Shown here: in pieces, positions 13,133-28,975 of the stretch
How the letters are laid out: each line of letters begins with the position of its first letter
How positions within the stretch are numbered: the stretch's first letter is position 1
Notes under the pieces: model-generated
What the model was told of the DNA's origin: nothing
The model's input: the letters and a program-made list of their open reading frames with translations, nothing else
Databases searched by the model: none
Assembly (NCBI GenBank): GCA_947626105.1
Contig: CANQQY010000009.1
Coordinates: 1-56,154, forward strand
Length of the DNA: 56,154 nucleotides
Direction: 5' to 3'
From: an uncultured Clostridia bacterium
GTDB taxonomy: Bacteria > Bacillota > Clostridia > Christensenellales > Borkfalkiaceae
Translations under genes and position numbers: made by a program

Positions 13133-16100
13133 ATGAAAGTAAAGAAACAATGGAAACTTGTATGCGCATCGCTGCTCACGGCGTGCTGCATCGGTACCGC
13201 TGCGGCGGGCTTTGCGCTCGCGGGCGGCGGGAGGACGGCGAACGCTGCGGCAAGCGACAAATGGGTCGGGCTTCCCGCAAAATCCGCCATGGTCGGTGAC
13301 GAGATCCTGACCGTAACGGATAACGCTGCAATTGTCAACAAGACCGACATCTTGCAGCTCCCGAACAGCACCGGTGTATTCTATATGTATTACAACGATT
13401 CCGTGGAATGGAGCGGCTTCACGCTCCGCAACGGATGCGAAGCTGTCGGCTATTCTTGGGTCCTCACCGGCGCAAGCGAAACGGCGTTCCCTTGGCACAC
13501 CGTCGGATTCGAGGGCAAGAACAACCACATGATCCTTCAAGACAACCGTAAGTTCCCGTCGTCGGGCGGCACATACGGCGGCTTGAAAGGCGTGGAAGGC
13601 GAGAACTTCAAGAACGGATTCATCCCGATCGAGATCCATGTCGGTCAGGGCGCCGCGTCGGAGGATCCTTCCTACATCAAGATCGGCGGCGTAGAACTCA
13701 TCCACGAACAGGGCAGCGGCGTCTCCGTCACACAGTCGGCGTCGCGTGAAACGGGCACGTGCACGGAGCTCGTCTCCTCCTTGTTCACCGAAGGGGCATA
13801 TCTTGCCATCAACTATAACGGGCGGGCAAATCCCCTTCTTGCGATCTCCGAACCCGGTTCCGTCGTCGCGACGAACGTGTCCATGGACATGACGAAGCAG
13901 GAGCATGCGGGAGCATTCTCCAAGGATCTCACGATGGATCTCTCCTCTGCGGAGGACGTATTCGGCGACGGCTGCACCGTGACGGTCAAACTCAACGGAA
14001 AGGTACTCTCTTCCGTGACGCCCGAAGTCACTACGACGGACGACAATAAGCATGCGACCCTCAAAGTTACCAAGGCGCAGCTCGACGCGATCGACACGGA
14101 GGATCTGGAAACTTCCAGCTACTTGACGTTCTCCTTTGATAACGGTGACAAGCATTACGGTGACGTTCCCGTTGCGCTCAGCATTCTCTTCGAGGATCCG
14201 CCCGTAGTAGAGGAGTCCGATATCGCGCTCGAAAAGAAAGAGCCTTTCTCGGTTTCCTTCACCTATGCAGGGGTTGCAGATCCCGAAACCGGTCTTAGCG
14301 TCAGCTACCAGCTTAATTCCGCTTCTCCCGAGGAATCCCTCACGAAGGATACGGATTACACCATCACAAAGGCCGACAGCAAATACACCGTCACCTTCAC
14401 GGAGGCGGGCGTTGAAAAGCTCTTTAACGGACACAATTCTTCGACCCTCGTATTCAGACTCGGTAAGCACGTATTCAACGCTTCCGTCTATGTGGAAGGG
14501 CAAACGACGGAGTACGGGATCCGTTTCCGCGAAGGGATCGACTATGTGGGCGATTCGCTCAAAATCGACGAATATTATGCGAGCGCGAAGATCCACAGGC
14601 TCGACACTTCCATCCTCGCTTCCCGTGTTTTCTACGAGAACGGCGTCGATGTGACGAAACCCATCTTCATCGAGTACGGTACCCTCGATCCCAAAGTCGA
14701 ATGGATGCTTATCTCGCTCATGAGCACGCCTACGATCTCCGAATACTTCACAGAGACGACTGCTCCCTCGCAGGGCAACGTATTCTCCTTCATCGTATTC
14801 GGTCAGGGCAGAAACAACTTGCAAGGCATGAACGGAACGTTTGTCAACGGCAATACGACCGAGCATGCGAAGAACACCAACATGAAGAACAACGTCGTTG
14901 AGATCAGCCTCGGCGCGACGAACGCGGCAGACGGTTACGTCAAGATCAACGGCCAAAAGGTCGAAGGCGCGGTTCCTGCAAAATCGCAGGCAGACTTCCC
15001 GAGCGGAAAGGCATGGGTCGGCTTCTTCTTCAATAACGGCGGATCCGAATTTGACTTCATCTGCAACACGCACGTCAACGCCGTCGCGATCACTTCTCCC
15101 CAGGCGGACAGCGAATATAAGATGGACCTCGGCAAGGCTGTGGATTTCTCCGTCGACCTTGTGAATACGAGCGGCAACCTCAAATTGAAGGACGAGAGCG
15201 GCAAGGAGATCCCTTCCTCGCAGTATAGCTACGAAGGCGGCAAACTCACGATCAAGGCGGAATACTTCTCCTCCAAGTCCTACGTCAAGGACGGACAGAT
15301 CTTCATTTGGGACAACGAGAAGGAAACGGGTACCGCTTTCAAGATGGAATACACCAACAGCGATATGGGTACCGTAAGGATCGCCTATGCGGTCAAGGGC
15401 GGCACGGAGAACGTGGCGTTTGATCTCGGGATCGAGAGCGTGACTTCCGTCACCCAAGACGGCGAACCCGTCTCCGAGGACAAATACACCGTTGAAGGCG
15501 GCAAGTTCATCGTCAAGGCAACATCGATCCCCGCAGAAGTCGGCGCGTATGAGTTCCTCGTGAATGCAAACGGCAGCCTCTATCCCTGCTACGTCTATGT
15601 GGATAACTTTGCAAACGGTTATGCCGCTGCGGCAGGCGCGGTCGCTTCCGAAAACGGCTACACGCTCACGGGTGTGACGAGCGTGACGGAGGCAAAGACC
15701 TACGATCTCACGGAAGGCTACGAAGTCAAACTCTCCTTCAAGACCATCGACGGATACTATGAACGCGGCGTCAACGAAAAGGCGACGAGCGTGACACTCA
15801 GATTCTATGACCCCGTCACCGCCCAGACCCTTGTCATCACCGTGTTCGCGAACTTCGAGGATGATAAGATCACCTCTTCCAACCAGGCGCTCTTCATCTC
15901 CTATGCGTTGTACGATGCGGCAGGGACGAAACTCTCCGGCGGTTCCGAGAGACCCGTAGCACCCACGGACGGCAACAACAGCGCTTCCGGCGTGCACGCG
16001 CTCGAAGTCGCGGAAAAGAGCGGCGGGCTTACCATCACCCTTGCGGGACGTCCCTATAACCTTAGCGCATCCGCACTCGGGAATTTCGGCCTCAAGGCTT

Positions 16101-16426
16101 GCGTTTTGACCGTGACGACCGAGAATTCGACGAGCGGTTCCGTTGCGGAACTTACCGTCGGCGAATCGACTCCCGGCGGCACGACCCCCGGCGGTACGAC
16201 CCCCGGCGGCACGACCCCCGGCGGCGATGATAACCCCGGCAATACCCCCGGCGGTACGACCCCCGGCGGCGATACCCCTAGCGGAAATGAGAACGGCGAC
16301 AGCTCCGGTGAAGAGGGCGGCTGCGGTTCCGTGATCTTTGCGGGCTTCGGCGCGGCGGTTGCGGCGCTCGTGCTTGCGGTCGGCGCGGCAGTTCTCATCG
16401 TCGTTCGCAGAAAAGAAGATAAGTGA
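13133..16426 (+). CDS. Large modular surface protein with C-terminal GCGS anchor
   Basis: 1097-residue exported protein with no catalytic motif I can see. It has a signal peptide (residues 1 to about 40, ending TANAA) without lipobox. Two distantly similar beta-rich modules of about 180 residues follow (about 42-220 and 460-650; WSGFTLRNGCEAVGYSW and MLISLMSTPTISEYF regions) with Ig-like stretches between and after them. A Thr-Pro-Gly-Gly repeat spacer (about 1010-1060) leads to the C-terminal GGCGSV (Cys1064), a hydrophobic helix and RRKEDK. It is likely a cell-surface glycan-binding or adhesion protein serving the adjacent hydrolases. AAGGAGG precedes the ATG. The same C-terminal pattern is found in three other proteins of the locus. 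Confidence 0.72.
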   Translation: MKVKKQWKLVCASLLTACCIGTAAAGFALAGGGRTANAAASDKWVGLPAKSAMVGDEILTVTDNAAIVNKTDILQLPNSTGVFYMYYNDSVEWSGFTLRNGCEAVGYSWVLTGASETAFPWHTVGFEGKNNHMILQDNRKFPSSGGTYGGLKGVEGENFKNGFIPIEIHVGQGAASEDPSYIKIGGVELIHEQGSGVSVTQSASRETGTCTELVSSLFTEGAYLAINYNGRANPLLAISEPGSVVATNVSMDMTKQEHAGAFSKDLTMDLSSAEDVFGDGCTVTVKLNGKVLSSVTPEVTTTDDNKHATLKVTKAQLDAIDTEDLETSSYLTFSFDNGDKHYGDVPVALSILFEDPPVVEESDIALEKKEPFSVSFTYAGVADPETGLSVSYQLNSASPEESLTKDTDYTITKADSKYTVTFTEAGVEKLFNGHNSSTLVFRLGKHVFNASVYVEGQTTEYGIRFREGIDYVGDSLKIDEYYASAKIHRLDTSILASRVFYENGVDVTKPIFIEYGTLDPKVEWMLISLMSTPTISEYFTETTAPSQGNVFSFIVFGQGRNNLQGMNGTFVNGNTTEHAKNTNMKNNVVEISLGATNAADGYVKINGQKVEGAVPAKSQADFPSGKAWVGFFFNNGGSEFDFICNTHVNAVAITSPQADSEYKMDLGKAVDFSVDLVNTSGNLKLKDESGKEIPSSQYSYEGGKLTIKAEYFSSKSYVKDGQIFIWDNEKETGTAFKMEYTNSDMGTVRIAYAVKGGTENVAFDLGIESVTSVTQDGEPVSEDKYTVEGGKFIVKATSIPAEVGAYEFLVNANGSLYPCYVYVDNFANGYAAAAGAVASENGYTLTGVTSVTEAKTYDLTEGYEVKLSFKTIDGYYERGVNEKATSVTLRFYDPVTAQTLVITVFANFEDDKITSSNQALFISYALYDAAGTKLSGGSERPVAPTDGNNSASGVHALEVAEKSGGLTITLAGRPYNLSASALGNFGLKACVLTVTTENSTSGSVAELTVGESTPGGTTPGGTTPGGTTPGGDDNPGNTPGGTTPGGDTPSGNENGDSSGEEGGCGSVIFAGFGAAVAALVLAVGAAVLIVVRRKEDK
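16161..16290 (+). repeat. Tandem 15-bp repeats coding a TPGG spacer
   Basis: Repeats of ACGACCCCCGGCGGY (Thr-Thr-Pro-Gly-Gly) with a few diverged units, in frame. They form the wall-spanning low-complexity linker before the GCGS segment; such arrays expand and contract readily. Confidence 0.8.
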
Positions 16427-16448
16427 TCCCACCGGATCGAGCTTAACA

Positions 16449-16478
16449 AATAAGATCCGCCTTCGGGTGGATCTTATT
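16449..16478 (+). terminator. Intercistronic hairpin, possible attenuator
   Basis: AATAAGATCC (16449-16458) pairs with GGATCTTATT (16469-16478), with GCC-TTCG-GGT stacked between, including a stable TTCG loop. No T-run follows, so partial termination or mRNA stabilisation is as likely as full termination. It separates the adhesive protein gene from the two glycosidase-like genes. Confidence 0.5.
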
Positions 16479-16504
16479 GTCAAGTTGAGTCCATGAGGTA
16501 TCCC

Positions 16505-18319
16505 ATGAAAACGATTTGCAAAAAATTAGTGCTGTTTTCGGCAGTTTTCGCATTGATCTTCGGCGCGCTCTTTGCGGCGTTTCCCCGTACCGCGCACGCG
16601 GCGGGGGAGCTCACGCTGAATAAGCCGGGGCTGGAACTTTCCGTCGGGGAGTCCGATCTTCTCACGGCGGACGGCGGGGACGTCGTTTGGAGCAGCGCGG
16701 ATGAAAACATCGCCACCGTGTCGAAAAGCGGCGTCGTCAAGGGGGTCTCGGTCGGAGAGACTTCCGTCACCGCCGAAGATAGCAGCGGCGCGAGGGCGAC
16801 CGTTCCCGTTTACGTCATCGAACGGGAGCGCGGTTTCGACGAAAATATCCTCATCTCCGTGTTCTGGCCTCCCACGGCGGAGTACATGAACGCAGGGGAG
16901 GGGGACGAGAGATGGGACGAACAGTATAAACTCCTCGCCGACGCGCACATCGACTACCTCTGCAACGTGACGGGCAGAGACCGCCAGCAGAACATCGGCT
17001 CTACGCCCAAGCAGGAAAATACCAAAGAGACCAATCTCAAAATGGCGTACTATGCCCATAAATACGGCATGCGCGTCTCGGTCGCGGACGAGCGGTTCGG
17101 CACAGCGTTCCTCAATACCGACCCCGTGCGGATCACCGATATCATTTCGGAGTACAGCAACGTGCCCGGCGTCGGCGGATACTATATCCTCGACGAGCCC
17201 TTTGACCCCATGCCCTATGCGGACGTCTATGAGGCGATCAAGCTCGCCGATCCGACGGGGTATGCGCACCTGAATTTCCAGCCCATCCACGCCTACGGCA
17301 GTCCCATCGGCACGCTCGATGAAAGAGCGGACGAAAGGTACCGCGAAGTGCTCCGCGAGTGGCTTCTTGCGGGCGAGGAGGCCGGCTTCCCGCACGAATA
17401 TCTCATGTTCGACTTCTATCCTTTTACGGATACGCAGGGCGGCATGGCGCGCGACATCTATTTTGCTAACCTCAACGCCGTGCGCGAAGTCGGGCTCGAA
17501 TTCGGGGTAAAGACGGCGAACTATCTGCAATCGATCAGCTCTGTGCTGCAAGCGAGCGGCGCTCTCTCCTTCCGCAGCGCTTCGCCCGAGGAGATCCGCT
17601 ACGAGGCGATGACCTCTCTTGCTTACGGCTACAAACAGCTCTCTTACTTTACATGGTTTTTGCCCACCAACCGAAACGGCGAGAACTTCTCGCAGTCGAT
17701 CGTGGACGAAAACGGCGTCCCCAATCCCAAATACTACGCCCCGATCACGCAGCTCAACGCCGAGATCCATGCGCTCGGAAAGACGCTCATCGGCTTGAAT
17801 GCGACGGAAGTCTATCTGAACGGCACGCAGTGGGGATGGCAGGAAGCGATCCCCGCGGGATTCCCCGTCCAGCCCAAGGACGATACCGATTTTACCGTCT
17901 CTCTGCTTGAAGATGCAACGGGAAAGCGGCGGTATGCGATGGTCGTGAATAACGACTTTTCCGCCCCCGCCGAGATCCCGCTTACCTTCGGTGAAGAGGC
18001 GAAAACGCTTCGCCGCGTGAACCCCGAAACGGGAGAGCCCGAACCCGTCGCGCTCGGCGACGACGGTAGTTTAGTTTTGAAACTCGGCGCGGGCGACGGT
18101 GCGCTCTTCGCGCTTTTTGCGGACGAGAGCGGTTCCGAAAACCCCGAAAATCCCGAAAAGCCCTCCGATTCCCAAAATCCCGCTCCCGACAAGACGGAAG
18201 GGGACGAAAAAGGGTGCGGATCGGTCGTGCTCGGCGGCGGGATCGCGATTTCCGTCGGCATTCTGTCTGCCGCCGCGGCCGTGCTCTGCGCCGTGCGGGG
18301 ACGCGGAAAAGAAAATTGA
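16505..18319 (+). CDS. Surface glycosidase-like protein with Big2 domain and GCGS anchor
   Basis: 604-residue exported protein. Signal peptide ends TAHA-A (about 31); residues 36-105 are a Big2 Ig-like domain (LELSVGESDLLTADG, WSSADENIATVSKSG). Residues about 115-480 look like a clan GH-A TIM barrel: ILISVFWPP, DERWDEQYKLLADAHIDYL, VPGVGGYYILDEP (candidate catalytic Glu in the DEP motif), YLMFDFYPF, and AYGYKQLSYFTWFLPTNR. A beta-rich domain follows, then a Pro/Glu linker and KGCGSV (Cys571), a helix and RGRGKEN. I cannot assign a GH family number. The ATG at 16505 has GAGG 6 nt upstream; an ATG at 16493 has none. Tandem paralogue of the next gene. Confidence 0.72.
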   Translation: MKTICKKLVLFSAVFALIFGALFAAFPRTAHAAGELTLNKPGLELSVGESDLLTADGGDVVWSSADENIATVSKSGVVKGVSVGETSVTAEDSSGARATVPVYVIERERGFDENILISVFWPPTAEYMNAGEGDERWDEQYKLLADAHIDYLCNVTGRDRQQNIGSTPKQENTKETNLKMAYYAHKYGMRVSVADERFGTAFLNTDPVRITDIISEYSNVPGVGGYYILDEPFDPMPYADVYEAIKLADPTGYAHLNFQPIHAYGSPIGTLDERADERYREVLREWLLAGEEAGFPHEYLMFDFYPFTDTQGGMARDIYFANLNAVREVGLEFGVKTANYLQSISSVLQASGALSFRSASPEEIRYEAMTSLAYGYKQLSYFTWFLPTNRNGENFSQSIVDENGVPNPKYYAPITQLNAEIHALGKTLIGLNATEVYLNGTQWGWQEAIPAGFPVQPKDDTDFTVSLLEDATGKRRYAMVVNNDFSAPAEIPLTFGEEAKTLRRVNPETGEPEPVALGDDGSLVLKLGAGDGALFALFADESGSENPENPEKPSDSQNPAPDKTEGDEKGCGSVVLGGGIAISVGILSAAAAVLCAVRGRGKEN

Positions 18320-18337
18320 AAAATTAAGGAGATAGCA

Positions 18338-20941
18338 ATGAAAACCAAGAAAAAAAGGTTACGCATCCGGCTTGCGCTTCTGTGTGCGGCGTGTTTTGCG
18401 CTCGGGGGAGGCGCTCTCATGCTGAGCGGTGAAGTCGTGCACGCGGCGGAAGATAGCCAAATCACGGCCTATTGCCCCGAGGGGAGCACCAACATTTCGC
18501 TCGGTAAAACTGTGACGGCCTCTTCCTCGTATGAAATGGCAAACGAGGGCTGGTCGGCTTCTTTCCTCACGGACGGGAAGATCGGCACGCCCGGGGTACA
18601 GCCGCCCAACGGCTGGTCGACAATGCCCGGCGAGACGACCGACCCTCTCAAAATCGCATGGGCGAGCATCGACCTCGGCGGGGAATGCAATGTTACCCGC
18701 ATCGTGCTCTTCCCCCGCAACGATCAGACCTACGGCGAGAGTTTCCCCGTAAACTTCCAGCTTCAAGTCTCGGCGACGGGTGCGGACGGCTCGTGGCAGG
18801 ACGTCAAATCGTTCACGAACTTCCAAACGCCCACCGAGCCGCTTTCAATCGACCTCACCGAGGAGACGACCGCAAACTATGTGCGCCTGTATGTTACGGG
18901 ACGCACGGGCGCCGATAACTTCTCGGGCGGCGCGCACGGGAATGACGGCAAGCTCGTACAGCTGTGCGAAATGGCGGTTTTCGGCACCCTTTTGCATGAA
19001 GCTCCCAAGCCCGTCAAACTCGACAGACCCGCGCTCGAACTCGCCGTCGGCACTTCCGATCGGCTCAAAGTCACAGGTCTCGGAGAGGATGCGCCCACGC
19101 TCACATGGACGAGCGACGATTCGGGCGTCGTGACCGTCGAATCGGACGGCACCGTCACGGCAAAAGCCGTCGGCAAGACGACGGTACGCGTAAACGGCGA
19201 GGGCATCGAAGAACAGAGTTGTCCGATCACCGTCGTCGAAAAGAAGTATGACTTCGACGAAAACATAACGATCTCCGTGTTCTGGCTTCCCACCAAGACC
19301 TATCTCGAAGGGGGAGAGGGCGACGAGCGCTGGGATGAGCAGTTCAAGCTCCTTGCGGACGCCGACGTCGACTGGCTCGCCAACGTCACCGACAACGACA
19401 ACACGGGCATGCTCCTTCATACCAAAGAGGACAATTTGAAGGCGGCGGAGTATGCGGCGAAGTACGGCATGCACCTCACCGTCGCGGATACCCGCTTCGG
19501 GAAGAGCCTTCTCAATATGACCGATGAGGAGATCACCGCGCTCGTGGAGGAATACCGCAATGTGCCCGGTGTGGGCGGTTACTACATCTGGGACGAACCG
19601 AGTCCGCAGGAAGATCTTTTCTACTATTCCCTCGTCTACGCGGCTATGAAGAAGGCGGATCCGAGCGCCTATGCCCATCTCAACTTCCTGCCCATGTGGG
19701 CTTATACGGGCGGAAATTGGAGGACGGCGGAGGAACCCTACCGTGAACACGTCGGCTCGTGGCTCGAAGATACTTTGGATATGGGCGTCGAACAGGATTT
19801 CGTCATGTACGACCTCTATCCCTATACGGGCTTCGGTACGGATATGATGCGCGATGAGTTCTTCTCCCACCTCGACGTGATGCGCAAGATCGGGCTCGAT
19901 TACGGCGTAAAGACGGCGACGTATCTCCAATCCAACGGCGGCCCGAGCAAACGCTCGCCTTCCCCGTCGGAGATCCGCTATCAGGCGATGACGTCGCTCG
20001 CCTACGGCTACAAACAGCTCTCCTACTTCACATGGTTCCTTCCCACCCACCGCGGCGAGACGTTCAACGACTCCATCGTAAGCGATCAGGGCGTTCCCAA
20101 TCCCAAGACCTACGATGCGGTGAGCCAGCTCAACAAGGAGATCCACGCCCTCGGCAAGACGCTGATCGGTCTCGACAGCCTCGAAGTGCACCTCAACGGC
20201 GAGCTGTGGGGCGGACAGACGGAAATCCCCTACAATTTCATCTTCCAGCCCATGGACGATGTCAACTACACCGTCTCGTTGATGAAGGATAAGCACACGG
20301 GACGCAACTACGTGATGCTCGTCAATAACGATTTCACGAACCCCATGCAGACGAGCATTTATCTGAATGCGCCCGTCGCCTTGCAGCGGGTGAGCCCCGA
20401 GACGGGCGATCTTGTTGATGTGCAGGTTTCCGACGGCATCCTCGACGTATCGCTCGAAGCGGGCGACGCGATCCTGTACGCCCTGCCCGAGGGGATCGAC
20501 TTCACCGAAGAGCATACCGTAGACAGGACGGCGGCGGATGAGATCATCGCGCGTGCGGAAGCGGCAATGCCCAACCTTTCCGATACGGACGCGGCGGCGG
20601 TCGGCGCGGCGGTGGCGGAGCTCAAAGCGGCGCTCAAAGAAAGTTTTTACATGCAGGAGTATATTGATGAGCTCACGGAGCGCGTCGAAACCCTTCTCGA
20701 CAATGCGGAGGGCGGCGGGGGAAGCCCCGACGATCCCGGCGATCCCGACGACCCGAACAAGCCTTCCACGGGAGAAAACGACCCGAACAAGCCTTCGGGA
20801 GACGGGAAAGATCCCGATGAGGATGGCGGCGGTTGCGGAAGTACGATTTTCGGCGGCGTCGCGGGCGGCATAGCTGCGCTCGGCATGCTCGTTGCGGCGG
20901 CGGCAGTGATCTGCTCCGGCAAGAGAAAAGAAGATAAGTAA
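18338..20941 (+). CDS. Surface glycosidase-like protein with F5/8C, Big2 and GCGS anchor
   Basis: 867-residue paralogue of the previous protein with an added N-terminal discoidin (F5/8 type C) module at about 45-220 (NISLGKTVTASSSYE, WASIDLGGECNVTRIVLF, ANYVRLYVTGRTG), a carbohydrate-binding fold. Big2 follows at about 225-303, then the same barrel (about 304-690): ITISVFWLPT, DERWDEQFKLLADADVDWL, VPGVGGYYIWDEP, MYDLYPYTGFG, AYGYKQLSYFTWFLPTHR. After a beta domain comes a helical FIVAR-like segment (about 730-790), a DDPNKPS linker and GGCGST (Cys833), a helix and GKRKEDK. Signal peptide ends VVHA-A. AAGGAG lies 8 nt before the ATG. It is last in the operon and followed by a strong terminator. 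Confidence 0.75.
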   Translation: MKTKKKRLRIRLALLCAACFALGGGALMLSGEVVHAAEDSQITAYCPEGSTNISLGKTVTASSSYEMANEGWSASFLTDGKIGTPGVQPPNGWSTMPGETTDPLKIAWASIDLGGECNVTRIVLFPRNDQTYGESFPVNFQLQVSATGADGSWQDVKSFTNFQTPTEPLSIDLTEETTANYVRLYVTGRTGADNFSGGAHGNDGKLVQLCEMAVFGTLLHEAPKPVKLDRPALELAVGTSDRLKVTGLGEDAPTLTWTSDDSGVVTVESDGTVTAKAVGKTTVRVNGEGIEEQSCPITVVEKKYDFDENITISVFWLPTKTYLEGGEGDERWDEQFKLLADADVDWLANVTDNDNTGMLLHTKEDNLKAAEYAAKYGMHLTVADTRFGKSLLNMTDEEITALVEEYRNVPGVGGYYIWDEPSPQEDLFYYSLVYAAMKKADPSAYAHLNFLPMWAYTGGNWRTAEEPYREHVGSWLEDTLDMGVEQDFVMYDLYPYTGFGTDMMRDEFFSHLDVMRKIGLDYGVKTATYLQSNGGPSKRSPSPSEIRYQAMTSLAYGYKQLSYFTWFLPTHRGETFNDSIVSDQGVPNPKTYDAVSQLNKEIHALGKTLIGLDSLEVHLNGELWGGQTEIPYNFIFQPMDDVNYTVSLMKDKHTGRNYVMLVNNDFTNPMQTSIYLNAPVALQRVSPETGDLVDVQVSDGILDVSLEAGDAILYALPEGIDFTEEHTVDRTAADEIIARAEAAMPNLSDTDAAAVGAAVAELKAALKESFYMQEYIDELTERVETLLDNAEGGGGSPDDPGDPDDPNKPSTGENDPNKPSGDGKDPDEDGGGCGSTIFGGVAGGIAALGMLVAAAAVICSGKRKEDK

Positions 20942-20943
20942 AG

Positions 20944-20976
20944 AAAAATATCCGCGGGGATCCCGCGGATATTTTT
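20944..20976 (+). terminator. Rho-independent terminator of the glycan-uptake operon
   Basis: A perfect 15-bp stem, AAAAATATCCGCGGG (20944-20958) with its complement (20962-20976), loop GAT and a terminal T-run, starts 3 nt past the stop codon. The A-tract on the 5' side means it can also act on transcripts from the opposite strand (the deoR-type gene). Confidence 0.9.
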
Positions 20977-20988
20977 ATGACCTTTTTC

Positions 20989-21094
20989 CTTGGCGCCCCT
21001 CGTAGGGGAGCTGGCGCGCGCTCTTGCGCGACTGAGGGGTTTCAAAAACCCTATCCCCCGCTACGCGGGTACTTCCCCTAAGAGGGGAAGCAAG
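20989..21094. repeat. MITE-like multi-hairpin element, copy 4
   Basis: 106 bp with terminal inverted repeats CTTGGCGCCCCTCGTAGGGG + A and TCCCCTAAGAGGGGAAGCAA + G. The interior hairpins are diverged from copy 1 (GGGGTTTCAAAAACCCT, CCCGCTACGCGGG) but keep the same order. Confidence 0.78.
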
Positions 21095-21102
21095 ATTTTC
21101 AA

Positions 21103-21152
21103 CTTGGCGCCCCTCGTAGGGGAGCTGTCACGCTGTCCTTGCGCGCCTGAAA
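21103..21152. repeat. Truncated multi-hairpin element next to copy 4
   Basis: The left end (CTTGGCGCCCCTCGTAGGGG) and first interior hairpin are present, 8 bp after copy 4. The element stops at the 3' end of the minus-strand DeoR-type gene, so it may have been cut when it landed against or was lost next to that gene. Confidence 0.65.
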
Positions 21153-21154
21153 GG

Positions 21155-21898
21155 TTAAACGATGACGGGTAGACTTTCGAGGGCGGCGCGCCGCGTTTTA
21201 GAGAGATCGTCGAAGATCAGCATGTCGAACGCCGTAAGCGGTTCGAGGAGATACGTTCCCGGTTGGTCGAACTTGGTTTGGTCGGCGAGAAGGACGCGGA
21301 ACACCGAACGCTGGAACACGGTGCGCTTGATCTCTCTTTGGTCGAGCGACGTCTCGTAGGTGCCCGTGTTGTCGAGCGCGGAGCAGGATGTGAGCATGAG
21401 ATCGAAGCGGAATTCCCCCATGAGTTTGTTCGTCCAGCTCCCCGAGATGGAGTGCCCGCGCGGGGATACCGTGCCGCCGGGGATGATCAGATTGATCCCG
21501 CGGATCCGCGAGAGGAGGGTCGCCGCCTGCAAAGAATTGGTGACGACCGTCTTTTCGGCGAGCGTCATTTGCTGTGCGACGGCAAGCACGGTGGAGGAGT
21601 TGTCCAAAAAGACCGTCTTGAAGTCGGTCGGCAGATGCTCGATCGCCTTATGCGCGATCTGCGCCTTGGATTCCGCGTTTTCCGTCATACGGACGAGAAT
21701 GGATACCTCGTCCGCCGCTTCGAGCAAAACGGCGCCCCCGTGGCTTCTCCTGAGAACCCCGAGATCCTGCAATTCGATGAGGTCGCGCCGCACCGTTGCC
21801 TCGCTCACATAGAGGGTCTGCGCCAACTCGTTCACTGTTGCGGAGCCCTGTTTCCGTAGGATTGTTAAAATTTCCTCTTTCCGTGCGTCATTTAACAT
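21155..21898 (-). CDS. DeoR-family transcriptional regulator, probable rhamnose repressor
   Basis: 247-residue DeoR/GlpR-type regulator. The N-terminal winged helix-turn-helix spans about residues 6-57 (EEILTILRKQGSATVNELAQ, then SEATVRRDLIELQDLGVLRR and HGGA), and the C-terminal sugar-phosphate sensor domain runs from about 75 to 235 (DFKTVFLDNSSTVLAVAQQM, VVTNSLQAATLL). It is transcribed divergently from rhaB, with back-to-back promoters. DeoR-type RhaR proteins control rhamnose genes in Bacillus, with a phosphorylated rhamnulose intermediate as effector, so a rhamnose-responsive repressor is the best reading. Ten-bp direct repeats downstream of its own -10 suggest autoregulation. The ATG matches the family N terminus MLNDARKEEIL. 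Confidence 0.87.
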   Translation of the reverse strand: MLNDARKEEILTILRKQGSATVNELAQTLYVSEATVRRDLIELQDLGVLRRSHGGAVLLEAADEVSILVRMTENAESKAQIAHKAIEHLPTDFKTVFLDNSSTVLAVAQQMTLAEKTVVTNSLQAATLLSRIRGINLIIPGGTVSPRGHSISGSWTNKLMGEFRFDLMLTSCSALDNTGTYETSLDQREIKRTVFQRSVFRVLLADQTKFDQPGTYLLEPLTAFDMLIFDDLSKTRRAALESLPVIV

Positions 21899-21910
21899 AG
21901 TTTTTTATCG

Positions 21911-21930
21911 CTTTTGCTTATTTGTGCTTA
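21911..21930 (-). promoter_or_regulatory. 10-bp direct repeats, candidate DeoR operator
   Basis: On the minus strand the deoR-type leader reads ATAAGCACAA followed by ATAAGCAAAA, then GCGATAAAAA: two near-identical units one helical turn apart, directly after the -10 box. Direct repeats are common in DeoR-family operators. Confidence 0.5.
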
Positions 21931-21931
21931 T

Positions 21932-21960
21932 ATTGTAGCACATTCTTGAAGTTTTGTCAA
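21932..21960 (-). promoter_or_regulatory. Promoter of the DeoR-type gene
   Basis: On the minus strand TTGACA (21955-21960) and TACAAT (21932-21937) are 17 nt apart. It is divergent from the rhaB promoter; the two -35 boxes are only 15 bp apart, so a regulator bound here could affect both. Confidence 0.8.
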
Positions 21961-21975
21961 CATTTCAAAATAACA

Positions 21976-22004
21976 TAGACAAAATTATCATTTTGTGATA
22001 TGAT
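21976..22004 (+). promoter_or_regulatory. Promoter of rhaBA with inverted repeat in the spacer
   Basis: TAGACA (21976-21981) and TATGAT (21999-22004) are 17 nt apart. The spacer contains the inverted repeat TATCA-TTTTG-TGATA (21986-22000), which overlaps the -10 and would be well placed for repressor binding. Confidence 0.75.
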
Positions 22005-22021
22005 ATTTGTGAGGTGAGGAC

Positions 22022-23389
22022 ATGACTGAATTTCTTGCAATCGACATCGGCGCCTCTTCGGGACGGCATATTTTAGGTTCCGTGAAAGAGGGGATCCTCA
22101 CTATCGAAGAGATCTATCGTTTTCCCAACGCACCCGTCCTCGAGGGCGGGGATCTTGTTTGGGATATTTCCCGTTTAGAGCGCGAGATCATCGCGGGAAT
22201 GAAGCGCGCGGGCGAGCTCGGACGGATCCCGGCGAGCGTCGGGATCGACACATGGGCGGTGGATTACGCCCTGCTCGACCGTGAAAACAACCTGCTCTCT
22301 CCCGTGCATGCTTACAGGTCCGACCGCACCAAAACTGCGATCGGCGAAGTCCATGCCCGCATTCCGTTTGAAGAGCTCTATGCGCGCACGGGCATTCAGT
22401 TTCAGCCGTTCAATACCGTATACCAGCTTGCGGACGATCTGCGGCGTGGGAAGCTCGAAAGGGCGGCGCATATGCTCATGCTTCCCGACTATCTGCATTA
22501 CCGTCTTACGGGGAAGATGAGCCGCGAATACACCAATGCGACGTCTACGGGGCTTGTCAATGCGCGCACGCGCACGTGGGATAATGAGATCCTTGAAACG
22601 CTCGGCTATCCCGCGCGGCTCTTCCCGACGCTCGTACAGCCGGGGACGAAACTCGGGCGTCTGTCCGACGCCGTAAGACGCGAGGTGGGGTACGATACCG
22701 TCGTGACCCTTCCCGCCACGCACGACACGGCGAGCGCCGTCGTCTCTTCGCTTGCGGGCAAGGGGGCGTATCTTTCGAGCGGGACGTGGTCTCTGCTCGG
22801 AACGCTCAAAAAGGAAGCAAACACAAGCGCACGTTGCCGCGAATACAACTATTCCAACGAAGGGCATCTCTTCGGCGGCGTGCGGCTTCAAAAAAATATC
22901 ATGGGGCTGTGGATCGTACAGCGTCTGCGCGAGGAAGAGGGAAAAGACCTCTCCTTTGCGCAACTTGCCGCGCTTGCGGCGGAAAACGCGAACGACGCCG
23001 AGATCGACGTCAACGACGAAGTTTTCCTCGCCCCCGAGAACATGAAAACGGAGATCGAACGCATGGCGGGAAGAAGCCTCACCCTCGGCGAGGCGGCGTA
23101 CTGCGCGTTCAGCGGGCTTGCAAAATGCTACCGCGCCGCGGTGGAAGAACTCTCCGACGTCACGGGCGAGAAATATGACTCGCTCAATATCTTCGGCGGC
23201 GGAAGCAAAAATAGACTTTTGAACGCGCTTACCGCAAAAGAGACGGGCTTAAAAGTCATCGCGGGACCCACCGAGGCGACGGCGATCGGCAATCTGCTCG
23301 TCCAGATGGAGTCCATGGGAGAGATCTCGGCGGAGGACGCGTCCGCGCTCGTTGCGCGTTCATTTGAAACGGAGGAATACATAGCATGA
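22022..23389 (+). CDS. rhaB: Rhamnulokinase
   Basis: 455-residue FGGY-family sugar kinase that phosphorylates L-rhamnulose to L-rhamnulose 1-phosphate in the cytoplasm. RhaB-type features are the N-terminal phosphate-binding AIDIGASSGRHILG, the substrate-side segment GIDTWAVDYALLD, the RSDRT and FQPFNTVYQL segments, the second ATPase motif LPATHDTASAVVSS, and the C-terminal adenosine motif NIFGGGSKNRLLNALTA. Length and motif order are normal. A purine-rich GAGGTGAGG site lies just before the ATG. The stop overlaps the rhaA start by 4 nt (ATGA), so kinase and isomerase are translationally coupled. Confidence 0.95.
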   Translation: MTEFLAIDIGASSGRHILGSVKEGILTIEEIYRFPNAPVLEGGDLVWDISRLEREIIAGMKRAGELGRIPASVGIDTWAVDYALLDRENNLLSPVHAYRSDRTKTAIGEVHARIPFEELYARTGIQFQPFNTVYQLADDLRRGKLERAAHMLMLPDYLHYRLTGKMSREYTNATSTGLVNARTRTWDNEILETLGYPARLFPTLVQPGTKLGRLSDAVRREVGYDTVVTLPATHDTASAVVSSLAGKGAYLSSGTWSLLGTLKKEANTSARCREYNYSNEGHLFGGVRLQKNIMGLWIVQRLREEEGKDLSFAQLAALAAENANDAEIDVNDEVFLAPENMKTEIERMAGRSLTLGEAAYCAFSGLAKCYRAAVEELSDVTGEKYDSLNIFGGGSKNRLLNALTAKETGLKVIAGPTEATAIGNLLVQMESMGEISAEDASALVARSFETEEYIA

Positions 23390-24621
23390 CGGAAATAAAG
23401 AAGCAATATGCGGCATTCGGCGTCGACGTGGAAGCGGCGCTCGAAACGCTCGGAACCATTCCCATAAGCGTCCACTGCTGGCAGGGGGACGACGTCATCG
23501 GGTTCGACGGCGCGGGAAGCCTTTCGGGCGGCATTCAGACGACGGGGAACTACCCCGGCAGAGCGCGCAATTTCGAGGAACTGAAAGCGGACATCAGGGA
23601 GGCTTTTTCTCTCATGCCCGGCAAAAAACGGCTCAATTTGCATGCGAGCTATGCGATCCTCGGCGACGACGCGGGAAAAGTGGACAGAGACGCTTATTCC
23701 TACAAACATTTCATCCCCTGGGTTGAATTTGCCAAAGAGCTTGGACTCGACGGCATTGATTTCAACCCTACTTTCTTCGCTCACCCTAACATGAAGGACG
23801 GACTCACTCTTTCTTCCCCCCAAGAGAGCGTCCGTTCCTTCTGGGTGGAGCACGGCAAACGCTGCATGGAGATCGCCGCCGAACTCGGCAAGGCGTTCCA
23901 AAAGCCCTGCCTCGTCAATATCTGGATCCCCGACGGGTTCAAGGACGTGCCCGCAGACCGCCTCACGCCGCGGCTCAGGTTGAAGAGATCTCTCGACGAG
24001 ATCCTTGAAAACTACGATAAAGAATGGGTCATTCCCGCCGTCGAAAGCAAGGTTTTCGGCATCGGCGTCGAAAGCTATACGGTGGGTAGCAACGAATTTT
24101 ACCAGAATTATGCCGCACAGAAGGGGATCTGCTGCCTTTTGGACAACGGGCACTATCATCCCCTCGAATACGTGTCGGATAAGATCCCCGCGCTCCTTGC
24201 CTTTTACGATAAGGTCGCCCTCCACGTCACGCGCGGCGTGCGGTGGGACAGCGACCATGTCGTCCTCTTCGAAGATGAACTCAAAGAGATCGCAAAGGAG
24301 ATCGTGCGCAGTCACGCCACGGAAAAGGTGCTCATCGGTCTCGACTATTTCGACGCAAGCATCAACCGCGTCTTTGCATGGGTCACGGGGCAGCGCTCCA
24401 TGCAGAAAGCGCTCCTCTATGCGCTCCTTCTGCCCCATGACGAAATGAGAAAGTTGCAGGACGCGGGCGATTTTACCGCCCTCATGGACTTGCAGGAGCG
24501 GGTCAAGACGCTGCCGTTCGGGGCAGTTTGGGAGGAGTATCTCCGCCGCTGCGGGCTCGACGAACATGTGTTGGAGCACGTCCGCAAGTATGAAAACACC
24601 GTCTTGAAAGAGAGGATATAA
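23386..24621 (+). CDS. rhaA: L-rhamnose isomerase
   Basis: 411-residue metal-dependent isomerase converting L-rhamnose to L-rhamnulose. Family hallmarks are PISVHCWQGDDVIGFD near the N terminus, GGIQTTGNYPGRARN, KRLNLHASYAI, the long metal-binding region around LGLDGIDFNPTFFAHP, the CCLLDNGHYHPLE segment, and HVTRGVRWDSDHVV. All residues expected around the active site seem present and the length is standard. It overlaps rhaB by 4 nt. The next pathway enzyme, rhamnulose-1-phosphate aldolase, is not in the window; the gene after rhaA encodes a surface protein instead. Confidence 0.96.
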   Translation: MTEIKKQYAAFGVDVEAALETLGTIPISVHCWQGDDVIGFDGAGSLSGGIQTTGNYPGRARNFEELKADIREAFSLMPGKKRLNLHASYAILGDDAGKVDRDAYSYKHFIPWVEFAKELGLDGIDFNPTFFAHPNMKDGLTLSSPQESVRSFWVEHGKRCMEIAAELGKAFQKPCLVNIWIPDGFKDVPADRLTPRLRLKRSLDEILENYDKEWVIPAVESKVFGIGVESYTVGSNEFYQNYAAQKGICCLLDNGHYHPLEYVSDKIPALLAFYDKVALHVTRGVRWDSDHVVLFEDELKEIAKEIVRSHATEKVLIGLDYFDASINRVFAWVTGQRSMQKALLYALLLPHDEMRKLQDAGDFTALMDLQERVKTLPFGAVWEEYLRRCGLDEHVLEHVRKYENTVLKERI

Positions 24622-24623
24622 CG

Positions 24624-24673
24624 CCCGACGGCTGTCGGGTAATGGATCTGACCGCGCCCGTTTTCGGGCGCGG
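24624..24673 (+). terminator. Double hairpin after rhaA
   Basis: Two hairpins follow the rhaA stop: CCCGAC-GGCT-GTCGGG (24624-24639) and CCGCGCCCG-TTTT-CGGGCGCGG (24652-24673). Neither has a proper T-run, so they may be an mRNA-stabilising or partial terminating element that lowers expression of the large surface protein downstream. Confidence 0.5.
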
Positions 24674-24712
24674 AAATTATAGATCGATAGGGAAAAATAA
24701 GGAGGAAAAAAG

Positions 24713-27700
24713 ATGAAACTCACAAAGACAAAAAGCGTTCTGATGATTCTGACGCTTGCCTTGCTCGTGCTGACGCTCGGTTTCGGACTTCTGTTCTTAC
24801 AGAAGAGTAGCACCGCAAGTGCGGAAGAAGCAGGCACGTTTGTCCCGCTTGCCGACGCTGAATTGCAGTCGACAAAATCGGCTAAAATATTTACGCCGGG
24901 CGGGACTGCAATATGGTGGAGCGGCGCACATGAACAGTTGCGCATCCACTATAAAATCGAAGGTGCTTCGCCCGCAAGAGGCAGTTCGCTTGGATCGCAT
25001 ATTTATGATGATTCCGAAAAACTCGAAATCACGAGCGGCGGCGTAACCAAGACTGCAAAGGCTTGGGGCGTGGGCAACAATTCCTGGATCGATAACGCCG
25101 AATCCAACGTGAACGGCCCCAGCGAGCCCGGCGATACCTATGAGATTTGGATCTGGGCAGGCGGAGATAAGTTGTCTTGGCTTCAAGGGATCACGGAAAT
25201 CCACTTCCTTCCCGGGTTCGGACGTTTGGACGCTAAGGGCGGTACGCCCAGCGCTACGGTTGCAAAGGATTTCTACCTTTGGAGAAATGGCAACTTCGGT
25301 TGGCAGACGCGAATCGATCCGTCGAAAGGGATCGAGGTCACATACAATGGTGACGGCGTTGCCTTTGGCGAAGTGCTTGATCCGAGCGATTTCACCGTAA
25401 AAGCAACCCTCAAAGGCAGCGAGGAGCCCACCGAAATCGACGCTTCCGGTTGCACGTTTGAATACAGCTATAACGGGCTTGCTGCCGAAGGCGGTCAGAT
25501 GTCTGTAACCGTAAAGTATCAGGATGCGACGAGCCAACCTGTCAACGTAACGGTCGCCGCAGACGCCGATCCCTCCAAGGGCTTGGTTCCTTATTTCGAT
25601 TACGCACAGAACAACGACTATCGCACCGATTGGAATGGGCAGGGAAGTCAGGATAACCAGCTTCTCCTCTTTTTCAACCTGAAAGGTGAAGTTACGGCTC
25701 CCGCGGCGGGTCTCAATCAATTTGCATATCTTCAAGGTCAAGGCTCGAAGGGTACCCGTATCCTTGATTATATCGTTTTCAACGGTACGACGAAGCTCTC
25801 CGAAATTACCGATATATTCGATTGGATCGGTCAGCATGCCGCAGGCCCCCAAGGGAGTGCAAGTTCCCCTTACGCCCTTTGGTTCTGCCCCGTGGGCACC
25901 GAGAACAATGGATGGAGAGGAACCATTCAAACCGTCACGATCAAAGCGGGCTTTACATGGGCGAATGCTTCGGGCGATATGGCAGACCTTATGGTCAAAG
26001 AGGACTACACCCTCTACAACGCGCATAACGCAGGTTGGCAGCGCGCGGTAGAAAGCATCTCTGCGGAATATACGGGCGATGAGGTGGAAGTCGGCAGTTC
26101 ACTCGATCTTTCCAAGCTCACAATAACGGGCAAGTTCATGGATAAGAGCCCCGACGCGACGATCGACAACTCCAAAGTTACGATCGGTGCATTACCGAGC
26201 GATGCAGGTTCGGGCAATGTTCAAATCACTTATCAGGGCAAGACTTGCGAATGCGCTGTCAACATGAAAGCCTCCAAGAAGCTCACGGGCGTTACCGTTG
26301 AGGGCGCCGATGATGTTACGGCAGAGCAGTGGACACGTCCCACTTTCGACGGGATCACCGTAAAGGCACAGTTCGAGGGCGCGGAAGCAGAAACGCTCGA
26401 AAAGGGACAGTACACAATCACTTGCGACACATGGACGTTGGGGCAGCAGGAGGCGACCGTCTCCTACACCTATGGGGGCGAGACCAAGTCCACGACTTTC
26501 AATGTCAATGTGACGGCGAATACCGCTACCGACAAGTATTTTGAAATTCTCGACGATGAGAAGGCGGCGCGTTCTACATCCTCTGCCTTCCCCGGTTACT
26601 ATGATGCCGGTTTGGCTTTCCGAATCAATTTTGTCGGCGTAGAACTCGGCGCTTACAATGGCGCTACGGCAAATTACTACTTTGACAAAGTCAAGGGCAT
26701 CCACCTGAACGAATATATCGAATTCGTCATTGGCGGAGATACCAAGACGGCGGCAGAGCTGTTTACCGACGGCACGTTGACGCACATCGGTATTTCCGAT
26801 ACCGGTAAATTGGTTATCTGCTTCAAAGATACCACCGAGCGTGACAAAGTAACGCAGGTCACCTTTAAGGCGGGTATGGAATTTGCGTCAAATCAGAATG
26901 CTTTTGACTTTAACGCCGATCAAACAAAAATCGATCAAAACGCGATTTTCCTGCCCAATGCTGTCCTCAAGAGAGATTATGTTTACTCCAATGGCGGAGC
27001 GAAGGGCTGGCTCAAAGTTGCCGATACGCTCAACGTGACCGTTGCGGGAGGGGAAATCCCGCAGAATGCACCTGAGGCTGAGGTGAAGGCAAAACTCACC
27101 GTTACGGTAAAGTATAAGGGTGAGACCGAAGAGACGACGCTCAAGGCTGCCGACTACACGCTTGAGCTTGACACTTCCGAACTTGGCGATTCCGTGACGG
27201 GCACCGTAACCTATCGCGAAGCAACGAAAGAATTCACCACCAAAGTGGTCGAAAGCAAAGAGCTTGAACGTATCGAACTTTCGGGCACGACGACGTTCAC
27301 CGGCGAACGCTTCGGCACGGCTCCCGAGCTTACGGGCTTCACTATCACCGCATATTATGTGGGCAATGAAACGGGCGTAGTGCTTGAAAAAGGCTTCACC
27401 GTCGGCAAGGCGGATATGTGGCTCGAAGAAGGTGCTCACAACATCGAAGTCTCCTATACGGAAGGCGGCGAGACAAAGACGGCGAACCTCACACTCACGA
27501 TTACCGCACCCAATTTGGAGAACGGTTTGGAAGTTTTGCATGACTACGAAGTGGAGTCTCCTCCTCCTTCGAGCTGGGACAGCGGCTTCTGGGGACCCAC
27601 GGGTTGGGGCAATCAGGCTTCCAATAACTCTCAGATAATCCTTTACTTCCGTGCAAAGGGTGACGTTACTCTTCCCGCGACCGGCGCTCTCGATCAATTC

Positions 27701-28975
27701 GTGGTCAATGGAACATCGAAGGGGACCCACATCCTCGATTACATCCTCATCAACGGGCAGCCTTACAGTGCGTGGAAAGATGCTTTCGGCGGCGGAAGTT
27801 GGATCGGTCTCCACAGCGCAGGTCCTCAAGGCACCGCAGACGGCAGCACTCCTTATCTGCTTTGGCTTAACCCCAGCGGTGGAGATAATTCGTGGAGAAA
27901 TTCCATAACCACGATCACCATCAAGGCGGGCTTCCAGTGGGCTTCCAGTGCCTCCGGCGACGTCGCGGGCGCAGTTGTGAAAGAAGATATCACTCTTTGG
28001 AACGCGAAAGACGCAGGCTGGAAACTCCATGCAGACAGCGTGAAGGTTGAACTCAAAGAGGGCGCGACCGTCTATGTCGGCGACGACATCAGGACCAAGA
28101 TCGACGTTAAGGCTGTCTTTGGAACTGAAGAAAAAGCCGTAACCGACTACACTGTTACCGATTACACCGCAGAGACCGCGGGCGAACAGACCATCACCGT
28201 TACCTATCAGGATCAGACGGCGACCCTCAAGATCAACGTTGAAGAGGCTCCCGCACCTGTGACACCCGAACCCGAGTCCGTCACGCTCGATAAGAGCGAG
28301 ATCGAGACCAAGGTCGGCGTCCAGCCCGATCTCTCGACGATCACGGCGACCGTGAAGTATAAGGAGAACGCGAAGGCGGATCTCACCTTCAAGCTCAATG
28401 CACTTCCCGAAGGCGCGTCGCTCTCCGCGATCGACGTTTCCGCAAAGGGCAACAAGACGATCACCCTTACCTATGTTGAGAACGAAACGACCGTTACTGC
28501 CACCTTTACACTGAAAGTGACCGAGGAAGCGGCTCCTCCCGCAACGCAGTACACCGTGAAGTTTGCAGTCGGCGACCACGCGGCGGCAGATGCAACGGCT
28601 CCCAACGAGCAGAAGGCAGACAAGGACGCACAGATCACCCTTCCCGCAGCTCCCAAGGCGGCAGAAGGTTACAAGTTCGACGGTTGGTACGACGGAACGA
28701 CGAAGGTCGGCGACGCAAATGCGAAGTACACTGTGACGAAGGACGTCACCCTTACCGCGCACTGGGCGAAGGACGAGACACCCGTTGAGCCCGGTCCCGG
28801 CGGCGACCAGCCCGGCGGCGACCAGCCCGCGAATCCCGAAAATCCCGACGGCAACGAGCCCGCTGAGGATGAGGGTTGCGGCTCCGTCATCTCCGTTTCC
28901 GGCATGATCATTGCGTTTGTGACCCTTGTCGGCGCAGCAGTCGTTGTGATCGCAGTTCGCAAACAGCGGAACTAA
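24713..28975 (+). CDS. Giant modular surface protein with GCGS anchor
   Basis: 1420-residue exported protein. A signal peptide (ending ASA-E, about 37) is followed by four related modules of roughly 150-180 residues (about 38-205, 285-445, 610-780, 945-1110). Each contains an ILDYI-like or KLEI strand, an I-x-AGF-x-W or ITEIHFLPGF strand, and a closing WxNAxxAGW-like segment (LYNAHNAGWQ, LWNAKDAGWK, LWRNGNFGWQ). Ig-like domains alternate with them, then an InlB-type repeat (GYKFDGWYDGTTKVGDAN, about 1315-1340), a PGGDQPGG linker, and EGCGSV (Cys1389), a helix and RKQRN. No enzyme motif is seen. It lies between rhaA and the rhamnosidase genes, so binding a rhamnose-containing polymer at the surface is a sensible guess. 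AAGGAGG precedes the ATG. Confidence 0.72.
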   Translation: MKLTKTKSVLMILTLALLVLTLGFGLLFLQKSSTASAEEAGTFVPLADAELQSTKSAKIFTPGGTAIWWSGAHEQLRIHYKIEGASPARGSSLGSHIYDDSEKLEITSGGVTKTAKAWGVGNNSWIDNAESNVNGPSEPGDTYEIWIWAGGDKLSWLQGITEIHFLPGFGRLDAKGGTPSATVAKDFYLWRNGNFGWQTRIDPSKGIEVTYNGDGVAFGEVLDPSDFTVKATLKGSEEPTEIDASGCTFEYSYNGLAAEGGQMSVTVKYQDATSQPVNVTVAADADPSKGLVPYFDYAQNNDYRTDWNGQGSQDNQLLLFFNLKGEVTAPAAGLNQFAYLQGQGSKGTRILDYIVFNGTTKLSEITDIFDWIGQHAAGPQGSASSPYALWFCPVGTENNGWRGTIQTVTIKAGFTWANASGDMADLMVKEDYTLYNAHNAGWQRAVESISAEYTGDEVEVGSSLDLSKLTITGKFMDKSPDATIDNSKVTIGALPSDAGSGNVQITYQGKTCECAVNMKASKKLTGVTVEGADDVTAEQWTRPTFDGITVKAQFEGAEAETLEKGQYTITCDTWTLGQQEATVSYTYGGETKSTTFNVNVTANTATDKYFEILDDEKAARSTSSAFPGYYDAGLAFRINFVGVELGAYNGATANYYFDKVKGIHLNEYIEFVIGGDTKTAAELFTDGTLTHIGISDTGKLVICFKDTTERDKVTQVTFKAGMEFASNQNAFDFNADQTKIDQNAIFLPNAVLKRDYVYSNGGAKGWLKVADTLNVTVAGGEIPQNAPEAEVKAKLTVTVKYKGETEETTLKAADYTLELDTSELGDSVTGTVTYREATKEFTTKVVESKELERIELSGTTTFTGERFGTAPELTGFTITAYYVGNETGVVLEKGFTVGKADMWLEEGAHNIEVSYTEGGETKTANLTLTITAPNLENGLEVLHDYEVESPPPSSWDSGFWGPTGWGNQASNNSQIILYFRAKGDVTLPATGALDQFVVNGTSKGTHILDYILINGQPYSAWKDAFGGGSWIGLHSAGPQGTADGSTPYLLWLNPSGGDNSWRNSITTITIKAGFQWASSASGDVAGAVVKEDITLWNAKDAGWKLHADSVKVELKEGATVYVGDDIRTKIDVKAVFGTEEKAVTDYTVTDYTAETAGEQTITVTYQDQTATLKINVEEAPAPVTPEPESVTLDKSEIETKVGVQPDLSTITATVKYKENAKADLTFKLNALPEGASLSAIDVSAKGNKTITLTYVENETTVTATFTLKVTEEAAPPATQYTVKFAVGDHAAADATAPNEQKADKDAQITLPAAPKAAEGYKFDGWYDGTTKVGDANAKYTVTKDVTLTAHWAKDETPVEPGPGGDQPGGDQPANPENPDGNEPAEDEGCGSVISVSGMIIAFVTLVGAAVVVIAVRKQRN

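Follow-up and report, generated by a model that had tools for sequence, protein, structure and literature searches.

The stretch of DNA under investigation (hereafter, the window) is a contig of 56,154 nucleotides (C9, CANQQY010000009.1) from the 1.64-Mb, 94% complete genome (G000) of an uncultured Clostridia bacterium of the Borkfalkiaceae, and it harbors four genes encoding exported proteins that share the same C-terminal tail (Table 1). In all of them, a glycine- and acid-rich linker leads to G-C-G-S, after which come a hydrophobic helix and a basic end, and the bodies preceding the tail contain repeats as well as Ig-like, GH42-like, and F5/8 type C domains. The original prediction had regarded this arrangement as a candidate sorting signal, reminiscent of Cys-based signals that are processed by dedicated intramembrane proteases. 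The translations bear out its description of the tail: the G-C-G-S motif is invariant in the four proteins; the Cys, which had been placed 31–35 residues from the C terminus, is 33, 33, 34, and 31 residues away from it in the proteins starting at 13133, 16505, 18338, and 24713, respectively; and none of the four tails contains LPXTG. A regular expression for the tail, applied to the stop-to-stop frames of at least 60 codons, retrieved the four proteins plus one out-of-frame match at 32414–32875, and the C-terminal sorting models of NCBIfam r20, including MYXO-CTERM, gave no match to the four proteins at E ≤ 1.

Table 1. Tail proteins of the window, their C-terminal signals, and the two partner genes found on another contig of the same genome.
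Feature	Position	Strand	Remarks
Exported protein, 1097 aa, ends in Cys tail	13133..16426	+	Shr-like HID domain over cut-off; CBM_X2 match below cut-off
C-terminal signal of 13133 protein: G-C-G-S, hydrophobic helix, RRKEDK	16319..16423	+	Cys codon 16322–16324; tail profile E 5.6e-22
Exported protein, 604 aa, ends in Cys tail	16505..18319	+	Big_2 domain; resembles 18338 protein by eye
C-terminal signal of 16505 protein	18212..18316	+	Cys codon 18215–18217; tail profile E 3.4e-19
Exported protein, 867 aa, ends in Cys tail	18338..20941	+	F5/8 type C, Big_2, and GH42 match
C-terminal signal of 18338 protein	20831..20938	+	Cys codon 20834–20836; tail profile E 1.3e-23
Exported protein, 1420 aa, ends in Cys tail	24713..28975	+	Big_3 and Listeria-Bacteroides-type repeats
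C-terminal signal of 24713 protein	28874..28972	+	Cys codon 28877–28879; tail profile E 2.3e-23
Lgt paralogue (Lgt2)	G000:C17:18149-18937	+	Outside the window; overlaps the protease gene
CPBP protease match	G000:C17:18930-19676	+	Outside the window; overlaps Lgt2

As for the opposite end of these proteins, the signal peptides do look plain by eye, as had been described, with a reservation for the 13133 protein, whose hydrophobic stretch contains the lipobox-like LTAC (residues 15–18); in most of the homologues listed, the reading is LAVC with another Cys right after it, which gives a recurrent CC. The N-terminal lipoboxes attributed to other proteins of the window were recognized by eye (FVAC, AVGC, AAGC, and ATAC, at 7115, 8988, 10905, and 41965, respectively), a strict lipobox regular expression having missed them, and these four proteins are devoid of the Cys tail. 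No Pfam match was obtained for those at 7115, 8988, and 10905.

A profile built on the four tails disclosed in the same genome a fifth clear tail, belonging to a 2600-codon frame on contig C8, and a weaker sixth one on C2 (G-G-G-C-A-G-S); the remaining weak matches lack the Cys motif. In the genus, the profile search detected tails in 42 of 103 genomes at E < 1e-4, a threshold chosen after the scores had been seen. The tails of the relatives keep G-C, usually followed by G and then by S or G (25 tails, picked for the Cys motif). Matches of the four-sequence model without the Cys motif (L006, L008, L009, L019, L024, L026, L027, and others) were dropped before the tail model A2 was built, and L021 (G028, CAGCGTIGF) was also left out of it. 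One might regard the tail as a plain membrane anchor, in which the Cys is incidental or forms a disulfide, and helix tails that look alike but lack the Cys motif do exist in the genus (L024, L026). However, the Cys, on whose conservation the original prediction depended, is kept in the 25 and the 32 aligned tails, though these rows had been picked for having it. Moreover, a plain anchor would not be expected to come and go together with a protease and a lipid transferase, as the Cys tail does (see below), and this explanation is highly improbable.

Searches for homologues of the 18338 and 13133 proteins, with about 8,000 candidates scored for each, yielded 78 sequences (P0005–P0082), 39 of which end, according to a script, in a tail made up of GC, helix, and basic residues. 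LPXTG-like tails are present instead in five homologues of the 18338 protein (two bear the names Ruania and Microbacterium), and two others (P0036 and P0050) have, by eye, a lipobox-like site at the N terminus but lack the tail, so that their anchor would be at the opposite end. That related bodies occur with three different anchors is consistent with the tail serving for anchoring. The LPXTG-like homologues, together with a layout in three parts that is also that of LPXTG tails, could suggest that a sortase processes a cryptic signal of that kind; nevertheless, besides the lack of LPXTG in the four tails, no sortase over the cut-off was found in the 103 genomes of the genus, one sub-threshold partial match (G003) being the only trace of it, and this refutes the sortase explanation, whose residual probability is practically nil. 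The proposed Cys-tail route appears to stand in for sortase in this genus.

The genome contains two CPBP genes, one on contig C17 and the other at C2:18119; both lie on contigs other than that of the window, so that the claimed absence of a processing protease from the window holds for CPBP proteins, no search having been aimed at rhomboids. The gene on C17 overlaps that of a second, divergent member of the prolipoprotein diacylglyceryl transferase family (Lgt2), a dedicated partner that the original prediction had not anticipated, and a canonical Lgt is also present, on C3. The protease scores 68.4 bits against PF02517 (gathering cut-off 22.4). CPBP proteins are characterized by the motifs EExxxR, FxxxH, and HxxxD/N; among 31 sequences of this protease, E120, F151, H155, N158, H198, and D/N202 are kept in 31, and E121 and R125 in 30. 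Its predicted structure (pLDDT 96) has the Rce1 structure 4cad as the top match (probability 1.00, TM 0.51), with a weak Foldseek E-value of 0.0098, and a search of the PDB sequences with the CPBP profile gave no match. Lgt2 matches PF01790 with 113.9 bits (cut-off 24.9) and remains under the cut-offs of the NCBIfam Lgt equivalogs (NF000778, 119.6 vs 334; TIGR00544, 79.3 vs 118.9). It resembles E. coli Lgt both in sequence (E 3e-19) and in predicted structure (pLDDT 88; 5azb, E 1.5e-7), and the residues corresponding to Y26, R143, G154, and R239 of the E. coli enzyme are kept in all 31 Lgt2 sequences, as are Cys 137, 142, and 143 (GRIGC..GCC); at this place the canonical Lgt encoded in the genome has GRWGN.

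Within the genus, the protease and Lgt2 were each found in 36 of the 103 genomes, the scores of both being bimodal (protease ≥74.6 vs ≤44.9 bits; Lgt2 ≥257 vs ≤170.5 bits). The protease is accompanied by the tail in 36/36 genomes and is absent from all the 61 tail-negative ones (Fisher 7e-22); the tail is also present in 34 of the 36 Lgt2 genomes, and Lgt2 in 33 of the 36 protease genomes. Since the rows of model A2 came from 14 of the 42 tail-positive genomes, the other 28 were considered separately, and 25 of them have the protease. Lgt2 adjoins the protease in 29/33 genomes, in three arrangements. In the three genomes with the protease and without Lgt2, the protease either lies at a contig end (G084, G096) or is a partial match (G023). 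A second Lgt-like locus was fetched in 17 genomes and has a CPBP gene of the same type alongside in 11; four of the six loci without it (G005, G008, G024, G030) belong to a low-scoring Lgt class, and the remaining ones are those of G028 and of G001, whose protease is about 6 kb from Lgt2.

It could be argued that Lgt2 and the CPBP protein tailor N-terminal lipoproteins, the Cys tail being a passenger. Lipobox-bearing proteins are present in this very genome, and LnsB of Staphylococcus aureus, a remote CPBP homologue, is needed for the N-acylation of lipoproteins, according to PMC7387801. However, the same source describes LnsB as departing from the CPBP catalytic motifs, which the C17-type protease keeps, and as having an NlpC/P60 partner rather than Lgt; the likeness to LnsAB would lie in a CPBP-like protein in lipoprotein modification. 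Moreover, an Lgt-family gene is found in 60 of 61 relatives regardless of the tail (G026, which is 71% complete, has no match other than one of the Lgt2 type); the pair, in contrast, goes with the tail, and this explanation is consequently quite improbable.

The independence of these associations from common descent was evaluated on a quick single-gene tree of rpoB comprising 76 genomes (the other 27 of the 103 were left out, their rpoB being absent, broken, or not fetched). The tail and the protease occur together in 25 of them, neither in 49, and the tail alone in 2. The tail is scattered over the genus, with 17 changes, at least 13 of which are forced by well-supported branches. In 13 independent pairs, the protease changes the same way as the tail in 11–13 (mean 12.4) and never the opposite way; Lgt2 behaves likewise (mean 12.6, opposite 0), and no such agreement with the tail is seen for the control paralogues (3.5 vs 2.7 for the other CPBP proteins, 2.9 vs 1.4 for the other Lgt-like ones). 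A self-written Pagel-type likelihood test with midpoint root gave, for correlated change with the tail, likelihood ratios of 80.6 for the protease (p 1e-16) and 73.0 for Lgt2 (p 5e-15), compared with 10.9 (p 0.028) for the other CPBP proteins and 6.5 (p 0.16) for the other Lgt-like proteins. The pair and the tail are nearly always gained and lost jointly, and the CPBP subfamily is a protease that tracks the signal across genomes, such as the original prediction had called for.

The further Lgt-like class of the genus (≤170 bits; G005, G024, G030, G125, and others) does not follow the tail on the tree and was set aside. The C2:18119 CPBP was likewise set aside as the tail enzyme, for its relatives fail the paired test, although their likelihood p is the 0.028 given above. 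In G001 (contig C12; L070, L439), a stretch of about 13 kb holds Lgt2, the protease, and a tail gene, while G081 and G027, which the rpoB tree places close to G001, lack both enzymes and have no qualifying tail; this cluster might be a mobile island.

The same association is observed beyond the genus. In an evenly drawn sample of 391 genomes of the class, in which up to 6 and 19 candidates were scored per genome, so that the counts are lower bounds, tails at E < 1e-6 occur in at least 3 genomes (G000, G034, G380) and the protease, at ≥230 bits, in at least 4 (the same three and G339), the other scored candidates not exceeding 97 bits. G380, which belongs to another family, has 18 tail matches (the 16 that were read all have the Cys), and one tail gene with the Cys lies immediately upstream of its pair, whose Lgt2 and protease genes overlap. 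G339 has the protease, one weak Cys tail, and no Lgt within the 10 kb fetched. The wider set of Bacillota consists of the best 80 of 218 protease relatives from a scan of named genomes, and partly overlaps the genus genomes (L230 = G015, L200 = G067); to judge from their titles, these loci come mostly from the animal gut and are labelled Clostridia, Oscillospiraceae, Borkfalkia, and similar, three being of Bacilli type. An Lgt-like gene adjoins the protease in 51 of the 80, always within 141 bases and with overlap in 37; Lgt comes first in 42 of these pairs and the protease in 3 (Bacilli type), and the two genes are on opposite strands in 6. A third conserved gene next to the pair was sought and none was found, the commonest neighbouring family, ABC-ATPase-like by eye, occurring in 9 of the 51 loci. 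Tails at E ≤ 1e-3 are present in 44/50 genomes of the protease loci (36/42 without the eight that provided the rows of tail model A7), compared with at least 9/391 in the class sample, and in 28/30 of those with an adjoining Lgt; up to 25 tail matches per genome were counted. A protease clade including Borkfalkia (L213, L221, L226, L236, L240, L242, L246, L250) shows no Lgt in the fetched flanks, and 7 of its 8 genomes have 4–15 tail matches.

Cys-based tail signals with CPBP enzymes include JDVT-CTERM/MrtJ, Synerg-CTERM/MrtS, and that of the archaeomyxosortase MrtA, and signals based on Cys were reportedly defined in Haft 2024. The cleavage of MYXO-CTERM proteins by MrtX has been shown experimentally (Guo, Haft and Wall 2025, PMC11980579). 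In that paper, the cleavage of TraA by MrtX requires the tail cysteines, MrtX, which has many substrates, is predicted to act after Cys lipidation, and its cognate acyltransferase is called unidentified and drawn as 'Lgt-like', Lgt being proposed as the leading candidate. The system described here shares with MYXO-CTERM/MrtX of Myxococcus xanthus the signal peptide, the Cys, the helix, the basic end, and a CPBP intramembrane protease with many substrates (predicted ones, in the present case), and differs from it in belonging to Bacillota rather than Myxococcota, in its motif, mostly GCG[S/G], and in the Lgt paralogue as neighbour. JDVT is presented in the same paper as one enzyme with one target (PMC11980579), unlike the many tails per genome found here. 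The C17 protease remains under the myxosortase cut-offs (Mrt_core, NF040914, 24 bits vs 100; MrtS 27.8 vs 130; MrtJ 22.1 vs 75; MrtA 15.8 vs 200), and its constant co-occurrence with a Cys-containing C-terminal signal in the genus is a myxosortase-like trait.

On these grounds, it is proposed, with a probability of about 0.78, that the tail is a C-terminal sorting signal, and that the paired Lgt2 and CPBP/Rce1-type protease replace its helix with a lipid on the conserved Cys; the co-occurrence across genomes supports the interpretation given in the original prediction. The proteins would be exported by Sec through their N-terminal signal peptides; the topology suggests that the hydrophobic segment stops the transfer with the basic end inside, which would leave the G-C-G-S Cys at the outer face of the membrane. 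Lgt2, the obvious candidate for the lipid transferase of the tail in view of its family, conserved residues, and co-occurrence, would put a diacylglyceryl group on this Cys, and, by analogy with MrtX, the protease would then cut the helix off after the lipidated Cys; the protein would eventually be held on the membrane by its C-terminal lipid. Such a route would be similar to the Lgt/LspA lipoprotein pathway, in which an Lgt-family enzyme acts on an outer-face Cys before an intramembrane cut, but with the Cys at the C-terminal end, an inverted helix, CPBP instead of LspA, and GRIGC..GCC in Lgt2 versus the canonical GRWGN. With Rce1/CAAX processing it would share a CPBP protease cutting beside a lipidated Cys, although the predicted location is the outer face and the predicted lipid is diacylglyceryl rather than prenyl.

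Several observations weigh against this proposal. No Lgt was seen in the fetched stretch at 29 of the 80 protease loci, some of which are on short contigs, and tails are present in 16 of 20 such genomes; Lgt2 may thus be dispensable or replaced there. In E. coli, the six absolutely required residues of Lgt are Y26, H103, R143, N146, G154, and R239 (PMC13251419), and in Lgt2 the N146 position is Cys in 31/31 sequences and the H103 position is Tyr in only 23/31; the same paper reports Cys at the former position for Leptospira interrogans and Tyr at the latter in Firmicutes. The pair occurs without a tail in G512 and G540, and in two genomes Lgt2 is accompanied neither by the protease nor by a qualifying tail, namely G028, whose tail is a variant one, and G126, with 7% contamination. 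The protease is missing in 6 of the 42 tail genomes (G003, G029, G036, G083, G100, G116); four of them are 63–87% complete, the contig of G116 ends about 110 bases after Lgt2, and G036 (93% complete) has neither partner at the thresholds. Neither these genomes nor the aligned tails present a situation of the sort that would have refuted the original prediction. A different tail threshold also has its effect, in that two protease-positive genomes (G001, G076) drop out at E < 1e-5, and tail-positive genomes become 51, 36 of them with the protease, at E ≤ 0.01. Finally, the likelihood test is nominally significant for the other CPBP proteins.

Some of these data would agree with tail cleavage by the protease in which no lipid is added, or a different group is, Lgt2 having some other target: the association with the tail is slightly closer for the protease than for Lgt2 (36/36 vs 34/36), and most of the genomes in which no Lgt was seen beside the protease have tails. 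On the other hand, Lgt2 is usually adjacent to the protease in the genus, and its gains and losses on the tree accompany those of the tail; Cys, the residue conserved in the tail, is the one lipidated by Lgt; and the dependence of TraA cleavage on the tail cysteines mentioned above (PMC11980579) points in the same direction. This alternative is hence regarded as unlikely, and the replacement of the helix by a Cys-linked lipid remains the preferred reading.

Regarding the surroundings of the tail genes, 16505–18319 and 18338–20941 look alike by eye over the catalytic-like part, as tandem paralogues. The regions 22022–24621 and 29044–32001, lying between the tail proteins, appear by eye to contain L-rhamnulokinase and L-rhamnose isomerase genes, and a GH106 (rhamnosidase) match below the cut-off was found at 29044; the locus may therefore serve rhamnose-containing glycans.

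Searches of an open-access library, judged from titles and the beginnings of abstracts, turned up no paper on C-terminal signals of the Cys type accompanied by an Lgt partner in Bacillota, a mention in Haft 2024 being possible. It is fairly probable that Bacillota possess a sortase-independent anchoring in which a duplicated Lgt has been re-aimed at a C-terminal Cys and works with an Rce1-like protease, supplying the transferase missing from the myxosortase model. An Lgt paralogue that overlaps the protease gene and is gained and lost with the tail makes the acyltransferase question of the myxosortases directly testable. If the proposal is true, Cys-based C-terminal sorting would extend to gut Bacillota, including a genus without detectable sortase, and many poorly described proteins of animal-gut bacteria would receive a likely surface address.

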